From: Pseudomonas botevensis
GTDB lineage: Bacteria; Pseudomonadota; Gammaproteobacteria; Pseudomonadales; Pseudomonadaceae
Reading direction: 5' to 3'
DNA: 64,000 bases
Assembly (NCBI RefSeq): GCF_019145475.1
Contig: NZ_JAHTKI010000004.1
Coordinates: forward strand, 1-64,000
In this document: piece by piece, positions 26,188-28,959 of the stretch
Layout of the letters: each line of letters starts with the position of its first letter
Position numbering within the stretch: position 1 is the stretch's first letter
Made by a program: the position numbers and the translations under genes
Notes under the pieces: generated by a model
The model's input: the letters and a program-made list of their open reading frames with translations, nothing else
Told to the model about the DNA's origin: nothing
The model's database searches: none

Positions 26188-27306
26188 ATGAAACCACGTG
26201 CCCGCGACCTCGATATCCGCATCGGTCAACTGTCACCCGGCCCGCTCAACGCCATCACCGACGTGCCCGGCGTGCGGGTCGGTCACAGCAATGTCCGGGG
26301 GCGCAGCGCCGCCGGGCGCGACATCTGCACCGGCGTCACCCTGATCGAACCCCGCGTCGGCTCGACCAACCGGCAACCGTGCTTCGCCGGGGTCCATGTG
26401 CTCAACGGCAACGGTGATGCCACCGGGCTGGAATGGATTCGTGAAGCCGGACTACTGACCAGCCCGATCGCCTTCACCAACACCCATAGCCTGGGCGTGG
26501 TGCGCGATGCCTTGATTGCGCTGGATCGAGCGCAGCAACCGGATGACGGGCGGCTCTACTGGAACATGCCGGTGGTGCTGGAAACCTTCGACGGCCTGCT
26601 CAACGATATCAATGGTTTTCACGTAACCGCCGAGCATGTTGCCGAAGCGTCACGCAACGCCGCTGATGGCCCGGTACAGGAGGGCGCAGTGGGCGGCGGC
26701 AGCGGAATGATCTGCCATGAGTTCAAGGGCGGCATCGGCACCGCTTCACGCCGGTTGAACAGCGCCCGGGGCGGTTGGACGGTGGGCGCCATCGTCCAGG
26801 CCAACCATGGTGTTCGTCGCGAATTGCGGGTCGATGGCTATCCGGTCGGGCGTTACATGGCGCGTGAGGATTCGCCCTTTCTGCGCGCCGCGTTGCCGCA
26901 TCCCGGGATGGGCTCGATCGTGATCTGCCTGGCCACCGACGCACCGCTGCTGCCGCACCAATGCACCCGCCTGGCACAACGGGCCAGCCTCGGTCTGGCG
27001 CGTACCGGCGGCGGTAACGAAGACCACAGCGGCGACATTTTCATCGCGTTCTCCACCGGTAACGCGCAGATCCCGCCCGCCGCCTACGAAAGCCAGGGCG
27101 CACCGACCTGCGACGGTTTGCGCATGGTCAACAACGACCATATCAGCGAGCTGTTCCTGGCCGCGACCGAAGCGGTGGAAGAGGCGATCATCAACGCCTT
27201 GCTCGCCAGCAACAGCACCGAAGGCAATGGCCATTCAGTGCCGGGGCTGGAGGGTGCGACGCTGTTGAGCGCACTGGAAAAGGCAGGCTGGCGCGGGTCT
27301 TTGTAA
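26188..27306 (+). CDS. P1-family (DmpA/BapA-like) N-terminal-nucleophile aminopeptidase
   Basis: A 372-residue precursor of the P1 peptidase family (S58 clan). Blocks are 'NAITDVPGVRVGHSNVRG', 'VGGGSGMICHEFKGGIGTAS' and 'GLARTGGGNEDHSGDIFIAF', the last holding the cleavage-and-nucleophile region (Ser in 'HSGD' is the likely N-terminal nucleophile after self-processing). Relatives release N-terminal D-amino acids or beta-peptides. No leader peptide is seen, so it is cytoplasmic. It follows the potF-like gene by 60 bp on the same strand and probably handles what that system imports. Confidence 0.88.
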   Translation: MKPRARDLDIRIGQLSPGPLNAITDVPGVRVGHSNVRGRSAAGRDICTGVTLIEPRVGSTNRQPCFAGVHVLNGNGDATGLEWIREAGLLTSPIAFTNTHSLGVVRDALIALDRAQQPDDGRLYWNMPVVLETFDGLLNDINGFHVTAEHVAEASRNAADGPVQEGAVGGGSGMICHEFKGGIGTASRRLNSARGGWTVGAIVQANHGVRRELRVDGYPVGRYMAREDSPFLRAALPHPGMGSIVICLATDAPLLPHQCTRLAQRASLGLARTGGGNEDHSGDIFIAFSTGNAQIPPAAYESQGAPTCDGLRMVNNDHISELFLAATEAVEEAIINALLASNSTEGNGHSVPGLEGATLLSALEKAGWRGSL

Positions 27307-27323
27307 CAACACGCCACCTCATG

Positions 27324-27344
27324 GTGGGAGCAAGCCACTCCCAC
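27324..27344 (+). terminator. REP-like hairpin GTGGGAG/CTCCCAC
   Basis: GTGGGAG (27324-27330) and CTCCCAC (27338-27344) flank CAAGCCA, a short derivative of the local REP palindrome. It lies 18 bp after the P1 peptidase stop and may act as transcript end; there is no U-run. Confidence 0.45.
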
Positions 27345-27438
27345 ACTGTTTTGGGCTGTTACCGACACGGCTGTGTGACGCAAAACCCTGGGCGGGATGG
27401 GTGCTCGAAAGCACCAGAAAACAGCTGACTGACGGTAC

Positions 27439-27467
27439 TTGAGCGCCTCCTCGCACCTTCCTACGAT
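27439..27467 (+). promoter_or_regulatory. Sigma-70-like promoter for the candidate small RNA
   Basis: TTGAGC (27439-27444) and TACGAT (27462-27467) are separated by exactly 17 bp, each matching four of six consensus bases. A start near 27474 would put the first hairpin at the RNA 5' end. Weak by score but correctly placed relative to the terminator. Confidence 0.4.
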
Positions 27468-27471
27468 GGAG

Positions 27472-27614
27472 CTACGCAGTCATTGGGTTCGCCCAATCGC
27501 CGCGTAGACGCGGGTGTACTGAACCCCAATCAAGCCCGCGTCTGGCTTCATGCGCATCTTGAGCCTCACGGGCTCCACTTCCTCCCCATCGAAGAGTCTT
27601 GAGGCTCTTTTTTT
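27472..27614 (+). ncRNA. Candidate structured small RNA with intrinsic terminator
   Basis: This 323-bp gene-free region contains four successive potential hairpins. Hairpin 1 has CTACGC/GCGTAG (27472-27477/27502-27507) enclosing ATTGGG-TTCG-CCCAAT (27482-27497, a UUCG tetraloop). Hairpin 2 has GACGCGGG/CCCGCGTC (27507-27514/27535-27542). Hairpin 3 has GAGCC/GGCTC (27561-27565/27571-27575). Last, a terminator stem AAGAGTC/GGCTCTT (27592-27598/27603-27609) with U-run to 27614. A long-range CGATGG/CCATCG pair (27464-27469/27586-27591) could close a multibranch fold if the RNA starts further upstream. ATTGGGTT can also pair with AACCCCAAT at 27522-27530. I do not recognise the family; a trans-acting sRNA or C4-like antisense RNA are options. 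Confidence 0.6.
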
Positions 27615-27629
27615 GTCTGTGCGAAAGGC

Positions 27630-28316
27630 TCAGTGCAGGGTCATTCGCTGGCGAACAAAGGCTTCGGTCTGGCGGGTCACCTGATCCAGATGCCGGTCCC
27701 GCTGCTTCTCGGCATCGAGCATCGCCCGCTTGCCGTGCTTTTGCAGCAGGTAGGTGTGGATCTGCTGCACCTCCAGCGAACGGTAGATCGGTGTCGTGTC
27801 GATGAATCCGCGCAGGCCGTTGCTGCGGTAATGCCGGGTGCTCATCAGCACCTGGGTTTCACGCTGGCCGATCACCTCAAAGCCCAGCGCTTCGAAATAC
27901 GCGACCTTGCCGACGCTGCAAGTCAGCTCCGCATGCGGGAAACGCGCAAGCATCTCGCCGATCATCGCCCGCGCCACACCCTGACGCCGATACCCCTCGC
28001 GCACCGCCAGATAGGCGACGTTGCACGCCTCCCAATCGCCCTGCACCGGCAGGTACAACAGGAAGCCGATCACCTGTTCCGGGTCGTCCTCGTCGGTGGC
28101 GACCAGCAGTTCCACTTCCGTGCCCTTCTCGCCGTTCAAGGCCTCCAGGTACAGATGCACCTCGTAGCCGACCGCGTACTGATAGACGTTGTAGAGCAGA
28201 TTGCTCGGGCCAAGTCCGACCGCGCTGATGTCGGTCAGGTAGTCGACCACCATTTGCAGGATCTGGCTGTTGACGCCTTCGGGGCATGGGGATTTGTAGT
28301 GGGTGATGCGGGGCAT
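27630..28316 (-). CDS. GNAT-family N-acetyltransferase
   Basis: A 228-residue GNAT protein. The acetyl-CoA pyrophosphate loop is 'REGYRRQGVARAMIGEMLAR', preceded by 'VIGFLLYLPVQGDWEACNVA' (strands 3-4). The C-terminal extension of about 90 residues ('RGFIDTTPIYRSLEVQQIHT' onward) is helical and charged and unusual for a simple GNAT. Substrate not predictable. Its stop lies 16 bp beyond the U-run of the candidate RNA, which therefore ends convergently against it. Confidence 0.85.
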   Translation of the reverse strand: MPRITHYKSPCPEGVNSQILQMVVDYLTDISAVGLGPSNLLYNVYQYAVGYEVHLYLEALNGEKGTEVELLVATDEDDPEQVIGFLLYLPVQGDWEACNVAYLAVREGYRRQGVARAMIGEMLARFPHAELTCSVGKVAYFEALGFEVIGQRETQVLMSTRHYRSNGLRGFIDTTPIYRSLEVQQIHTYLLQKHGKRAMLDAEKQRDRHLDQVTRQTEAFVRQRMTLH

Positions 28317-28473
28317 GGCGGGTGAACTCCAACGCTGAAAACGGGTTGCCGACGACCTGGCCGCTGGCGAACAGCGCCATCATACCCCGCGGCGGCCCGG
28401 ACACTGGCTAAAGTTGCCCGGCGTCGCGCCGATGCAACGTTTCCCCTCATTCCAAAAAACGAAGGATCGTCCG

Positions 28474-28959
28474 ATGTTCCACCCGCGCGAAGCCCAGCGA
28501 GATCACCTCTACAACCGTATCGTCATGCTCACCGTGGCTTGTTGCGTGGTCTTGCTGTTGGCCGGGATGGCCCGTCATCAGGGCATCCGCTATGGCGCGT
28601 TGCAGTTCAATGCGATGCAGGTCAGCGGCACCGTCACGGCGCTGGAAGAGATCCTGTTGAACGACAACGGCAAAATCATTCACTACCGCTACACCGACGA
28701 GCAGGGTCTCAGCCACGACGATCAATACGCCGACGAACGCTACGCCGAGCACACCCAATATGAAGTCGGCGGATCGATTGCGTTGCTGGTGTCGCGCTGG
28801 TTGCCGAAACAGAACGCCATCGCCAGCGAACTGCACAGCTATCGTCCGAGCTTCTACATCATGACCGGCGGCCTGTTGCTCGCGGTGCTGTTCCTGCTGA
28901 TCTCGGGGCGCACGTTCTGGCAGATTCAGGCGATGAAAGACCAGGACCGCTACTACTGA
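28474..28959 (+). CDS. Membrane protein with DUF3592-like domain
   Basis: A 161-residue protein with two transmembrane segments (about residues 16-32 and 128-145) around a periplasmic beta-rich part ('MQVSGTVTALEEILLNDNGK' and 'IHYRYTDEQGLSHDDQYADE'), a layout seen in DUF3592-type proteins. ATG at 28474 follows GAAGGATCG. Function unknown. It is divergent from the GNAT gene across about 157 bp. Confidence 0.72.
   Translation: MFHPREAQRDHLYNRIVMLTVACCVVLLLAGMARHQGIRYGALQFNAMQVSGTVTALEEILLNDNGKIIHYRYTDEQGLSHDDQYADERYAEHTQYEVGGSIALLVSRWLPKQNAIASELHSYRPSFYIMTGGLLLAVLFLLISGRTFWQIQAMKDQDRYY

Follow-up and report, generated by a model that had tools for sequence, protein, structure and literature searches.

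A candidate gene for a structured small RNA with C-rich loops in Pseudomonas

The locus, its promoter and its reading frames

The window analyzed here is the whole 64-kb stretch of DNA presented above. In it, genes that Pfam identifies as encoding an S58 (P1) peptidase and a GNAT acetyltransferase flank a segment, 27439-27614, which looks like a genuine structured, free-standing, noncoding small-RNA gene. An earlier note had described a structured candidate small RNA in this gap, to which it could assign no family, and comparative evidence supports that description. The features of the gene are collected in Table 1. Just 3′ of the S58 gene, at 27324-27344, there is a GTGGGAGCAAGCCACTCCCAC inverted repeat that appears REP-like by eye.

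Table 1. Features of the candidate small-RNA gene (positions in the window)
Feature	Position	Strand	Evidence
Conserved upstream block of the promoter, GACT...GGTACTTGAG, covering most of the -35 box	27427-27443	+	Per-base identity in 104 distinct sequences
-35 hexamer TTGAGC	27439-27444	+	Sequence and conservation
-10 hexamer TACGAT	27462-27467	+	Sequence and comparison of homologues
Predicted small-RNA transcript, ~141 nt	27474-27614	+	Start from -10 box spacing and start of hairpin 1; end from T-run; covariance-model match 27468-27614
Hairpin 1, with a base of the ACGCAG/CUGCGU type and a variable apex	27474-27505	+	Both sides changed in 4 of 7 pairs; 98.1% of cells paired
Hairpin 2	27506-27543	+	Both sides changed in 7 of 9 pairs; 98.6% of cells paired
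Conserved loop UGAACCCCAAUCAAG of hairpin 2, a putative seed	27520-27534	+	Mean unpaired probability 0.74 at motif (99 sites)
Conserved, mostly unpaired linker (GGCUUCAUGCGCAUCUU)	27544-27560	+	Mean unpaired probability 0.76 at core motif (98 sites)
Arms of the GAGCC/GGCUC hairpin (first two of four elements complementary to one another)	27561-27575	+	Alignment and folding
C-rich stretch ACUUCCUCCCCAUC, unpaired and nearly invariant, a putative anti-Shine-Dalgarno seed	27577-27590	+	Folding and homologue counts
Intrinsic terminator with T7	27592-27614	+	Sequence and terminator scan

Since the terminator and the structure are visible directly while a consensus scan of 26500-28500 lists no sigma-70 promoter, the promoter needs support from conservation. 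The two hexamers named by the earlier note, TTGAGC-N17-TACGAT, are present with their 17-base spacer (27439-27467) and are conserved across homologues, but they are weak by consensus alone. In 104 distinct sequences, every base of GAC and of the -35 block GGTACTTGAG reaches an identity of 99% or more, compared with 20 to 80% just upstream. Conservation begins abruptly at GACT (27427), 47 bases 5′ of the predicted start. The -10 box reads mostly TA(C/G)GAT in homologues, with TAGGAT in many and TAAGAT, CATGAT, or TAGCAT in a few. A sigma-70-type promoter at this place would start transcription at A27474, the first base of hairpin 1, and yield an RNA of some 141 nt; position 27439, from which the note had begun its segment, is the start of the -35 box. 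We searched six genomes for the full promoter pattern and found it once per genome in five, at the small-RNA gene, and not in the sixth. A regulon sharing this promoter was rejected, as the exact pattern did not occur elsewhere in these six genomes. The 104 sequences exclude the truncated row L134/L151; they collapsed to 100, all of which were carried on as the homologues below. The pattern used to gather this set omitted L093, L103, and L117, which lie too close to the end of their loci, and L125, in which no terminator was matched; it also missed L168 and L187, both of which match by BLAST.

An open reading frame, 27550-27684 (44 aa), overlaps the 3′ half of the gene, which speaks for a short-protein gene. 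Its ATG is missing in 26 of 100 homologues, however, and the other 74 read it in three different frames; the frame has no Pfam match, and 35 of the 100 homologous transcripts hold no closed frame of at least 12 codons. We therefore rejected this frame as coding. The earlier view that no protein frame fits agrees with this result for the one frame checked, and the short-protein reading, largely refuted, is barely credible.

RNA structure and covariation

The predicted structure has a folding energy of -66.6, compared with -50.73 (standard deviation, 4.13) for dinucleotide shuffles (z = -3.84; 0 of 200 equal it). We then examined base pairing in the 100 homologues, whose alignment leans toward the model structure because it was fitted to it. 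For the whole structure, 98.3% of cells are paired (92.5% in shuffles). Cells changed on both sides number 199 against 63.0 in shuffles, a value that 0 of 500 shuffles reach, and 11 pairs show such double-sided change against 8.7 (9 of 500 reach it). The covariation score is 0.258, compared with 0.147 for shuffles and 0.012 to 0.047 when the partners are slid, which destroys the signal. In a free MAFFT alignment of 30 sequences, 8 pairs covary against 4.0 in shuffles (1 of 500), and the count of pair types in that alignment is not above shuffles (307 of 500). RNAalifold recovers the same helices. Variable G-U pairs (at two positions of hairpin 1 they fill 40 and 30 cells) would be A-C if read on the other strand, so the plus strand is favored. 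The terminator helix hardly varies, its GAGGCTC arm being unchanged in 97 distinct rows, and it gives no covariation support.

Much of the architecture drawn in the earlier note was recovered. The 8-bp stem GACGCGGG/CCCGCGTC of hairpin 2 (27507-27514 with 27535-27542), the GAGCC stem (27561-27565 with GGCTC at 27571-27575), and the intrinsic terminator with U7 are all present as described; the last is one of four terminator-like sites that a scan of 26500-28500 found against 1.6 expected. The UUCG-capped hairpin exists in this copy but is no family feature, as the apex of hairpin 1 varies widely. Two further proposals did not hold. An alternative pairing, ATTGGGTT/AACCCCAAT, requires a bulged C, and the longest uninterrupted match that hairpin 1 can make with loop 2 is 7 bp here; a match of at least 7 bp occurs in 12 of 100 homologues, compared with 5.8% of shuffles, and the pairing is not conserved. 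The outer stem CGATGG/CCATCG fails as well: CCATCG occurs in 1 of the 100 homologues, this one, and its partner falls in the -10 region.

The 3′ half contains four mutually complementary elements, GAGCC, GGCUC, GAGC/GAGUC, and GGCUC, and can be folded either into two hairpins (mean, -16.9 kcal/mol) or into one long nested hairpin (mean, -21.8 kcal/mol). The nested form is favored in 100 of 100 homologues, by 3.4 to 8.5 kcal/mol. Two C-rich stretches are nearly invariant and unpaired: the loop of the terminator hairpin carries ACUUCCUCCCCAUC, and loop 2 carries UGAACCCC. In the computed ensembles CUCCCCAUC has an unpaired probability of 1.00 (99 sites), and ACTTCCTCCCCATCAAAGAG is exact in 71 of 100 homologues. 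ACUUCCUCCCCAUC is a candidate for the conserved unpaired seed for which a check had been suggested.

Distribution and neighborhoods

With a 241-base DNA query, we found homologues in 68 of 398 Pseudomonas genomes. A covariance model was built from 30 of them, and this search, the kind called for in the earlier note, matched 69 of the 398 genomes, one match per genome. Of these, we count 65 as full length (at least 114.9 bits), 3 as truncated, and 1 as spurious. The truncated copies, in G230, G198, and G036 (66.7, 48.1, and 46.1 bits), have lost the 5′ part. Matches in G084 (27.7 bits) and G465 (24.8 bits) were dropped as spurious, having neither a BLAST match to the RNA nor such a gene in their letters. 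Among 198 genomes of the family there were four covariance matches, three in Pseudomonas and one (24.8 bits) dismissed, and among 194 genomes of the order there were two, both in Pseudomonas; no full-length copy outside Pseudomonas was found in these samples. Because the larger covariance searches scored only 7 to 16 candidates in each genome, they may have overlooked diverged copies. An improved model, R2, run for divergent homologues on 39 genus genomes with no earlier match gave a best score of 17.2 bits. Of 36 genomes with a GNAT protein at least 88% identical to the one in this window, 24 carry the gene at full length and 3 in truncated form, and 9 lack it. An exact pattern occurs in 77 stretches of a named collection, all titled Pseudomonas; the species include P. 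fluorescens, P. koreensis, P. jessenii, P. mandelii, P. migulae, P. frederiksbergensis, and P. umsongensis.

Truncated or decayed copies were noted at L149, L150, L151, L140, L142, and L144 (G036, G198, G230, G229, G011, and G215, respectively). L150 still has the seed-bearing 3′ half and the greater part of the promoter block. In several decayed copies, REP-like repeats of the GTAGGAGCTGCCGAAGGCTGCGATC type adjoin the break, as if losses went with the repeats.

Such repeats near the gene in relatives could point to conserved DNA that makes no transcript, either a binding site or the remnant of a mobile or REP-like element. Against this stand the single copy per genome, the correct order of promoter and terminator, and base-pair covariation that includes G-U pairs. 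A plasmid, phage, or viral origin was rejected, with zero matches in plasmids, in phages, and, for the pattern, in viral contigs. We regard untranscribed DNA as very improbable.

The nearest upstream gene within 1 kb of the 100 homologues encodes the S58 peptidase in 49 cases, a TetR-type protein in 31, a methyltransferase in 9, and something else in 8; in 3 the locus ends. The names TetR, DUF4442, and methyltransferase come from reading the sequences by eye. Wherever it was recognized (89 of 100), the upstream neighbor lies on the same strand, and the promoter often stands right behind its stop codon. This arrangement would suit a cis-acting element, that is, an RNA derived from the 3′ untranslated region of the upstream gene, a terminator shared with it, or a leader of the downstream gene. 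However, promoter, hairpins, and terminator persist where the upstream gene differs, so the small RNA is not the leader or tail of one particular gene but a unit untied to one neighbor. Downstream lies commonly a DUF4442-like gene or a GNAT gene on the opposite strand, and a convergent neighbor also speaks against a cis-acting element. A cis-acting role is accordingly improbable.

A pair of genes that by eye encode a TetR-type regulator and a thioesterase-like protein (L145, 4190-5640, and related loci) is found on either side of the small-RNA gene. In some loci, as in this window, the pair is absent beside it. In L066, L068, L079, L064, and L159 the small-RNA gene sits in quite different neighborhoods, which suggests that the unit relocated or that its surroundings were rearranged.

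Relation to known RNAs and a proposed mode of action

We searched Rfam 15 and obtained no family at gathering score in the 64-kb window or in 10 homologous loci; with E values up to 10, the region 27300-27700 gave three subthreshold, chance-like matches only. The earlier note likewise could not assign a family, and of the two results that it said would overturn its reading, covariation is present rather than absent and a match to a known family did not appear. In open-license papers, titles and abstract openings contained no description that we recognized as this RNA. The RNA family is therefore new in being absent from Rfam 15, and its kind is already well known: the gene has its own promoter (by conservation, not by the consensus scan), a structured RNA, an intrinsic terminator, and no protein frame, as is general for intergenic trans-acting small RNAs.

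Small RNAs of Pseudomonas include RgsA (P16), PhrS, CrcZ, RsmX/Y/Z, PrrF, and ErsA. Like them, the RNA described here is intergenic, belongs to the same genus, and has its own promoter and terminator; the lack of Rfam 15 matches sets it apart from them to the extent that Rfam covers those six. Sponges of the RsmX/Y/Z type expose several GGA motifs in loops. GGA is absent from the predicted transcript, which excludes the Rsm/Csr type for this copy.

Comparison of the homologues shows a conserved promoter, two covarying hairpins, a near-invariant terminator hairpin, two near-invariant C-rich stretches, and persistence across changing neighbors. With somewhat better than even confidence, we read this as a gene that stands on its own and encodes an antisense small RNA acting in trans, whose C-rich anti-Shine-Dalgarno loops would act against G-rich ribosome-binding sites. 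When a loop presents a C-rich anti-Shine-Dalgarno strand that is better conserved than the varying stems around it, this is the signature of an anti-Shine-Dalgarno riboregulator, which favors translational repression of several mRNAs. Hairpin 1, at the extreme 5′ end, would protect the RNA. UGAACCCC in the loop of hairpin 2 and CUUCCUCCCCAUC in the large loop of the terminator hairpin would pair with the Shine-Dalgarno regions of several mRNAs, and such pairing would block translation. Judging by the U-rich tail, Hfq probably binds at the 3′ end.

The best explanation by analogy is that the RNA may work like αr14/NfeR1 or sX13, with no membership in either family claimed. NfeR1 (αr14) of Sinorhizobium meliloti silences start regions through three redundant CCUCCUCCC anti-Shine-Dalgarno motifs (PMC10746234). 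Both RNAs have several hairpins and an unpaired C-rich anti-Shine-Dalgarno motif, which in NfeR1 is ultraconserved while the stems vary (PMC10746234). NfeR1 carries an identical CCUCCUCCC in three hairpins, whereas the Pseudomonas RNA has two C-rich loops, UGAACCCC and CUUCCUCCCCAUC, which are related but not identical; the RNA of the window lacks CCUCCUCCC, having a CUUCCUCCCC stretch in one place and a different C-rich loop in another. The Xanthomonas RNA sX13 (115 nt) uses C-rich loops to repress mRNAs that carry G-rich motifs close to their start codons, and it does not need Hfq (PMC3771888). Our RNA is of about the same size class and also has stable stems with C-rich loops. Whereas sX13 has three stems with apical C-rich loops, this RNA has two conserved C-rich loops and a variable apex on hairpin 1; the sequence relation of the two RNAs was compared via Rfam alone.

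We searched for targets by perfect match. GGGGAGGAA-N2-10-ATG occurs at 17 places in six genomes, with one recurring start region, that of a 110-aa frame (twice in G000, once in G311); four other places share one context but open 5 to 15 codons only. TTGATGGGGA occurs at 33 places in five genomes, and of the 30 inspected, 4 are the small-RNA gene itself and two orthologous pairs lie inside coding sequence. Neither search yielded a conserved target. Pairing with neighboring start regions (six start regions, three seeds) was not above shuffles, the best of 18 tests being 12 of 300. The 110-aa frame resembles a membrane protein and begins immediately behind GGGGAGGAAC, which matches the C-rich seed over 8 to 9 bases (G000:C24:99-115, G000:C25:48532-48548, and G311:C1:940125-940141); by eye, it is perhaps a phage or tailocin holin. 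Counted against the antisense explanation are the lack of a conserved target, the presence of the RNA in a minority of the genus, and a scan that finds no sigma-70 promoter.

The want of a conserved mRNA target would fit another kind of real small RNA, one that binds a protein as a sponge or scaffold, with conserved CCCC(N)AUCAA loops as repeated recognition sites. Loops 2 and 3 indeed share this motif at 9 of 10 aligned positions, but the similarity is weak, as 195 of 5,000 shuffles of loop 2 are as similar, and the likeness is only suggestive. Antisense pairing would be served just as well by C-rich single strands, and the exclusion of the Rsm/Csr type for this copy also weighs against protein binding, which we consider unlikely. 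Returning to antisense action, a bolder version seems similarly doubtful: a lineage-specific hub regulator with two redundant C-rich seeds (CCCC(N)AUCAA) and a 3′ half in two forms that would keep the chief seed always in a loop. Such an RNA, with changed neighbors and repeated losses, may govern a large number of ribosome-binding sites across the Pseudomonas fluorescens group.

The near-invariant seed makes target identification directly testable. The gene represents a well-supported RNA family, not included in Rfam 15, in bacteria associated with plants and soil. If the anti-Shine-Dalgarno reading is true, Pseudomonas would have evolved, apparently on its own, the multiloop C-rich design known from rhizobia and Xanthomonas.
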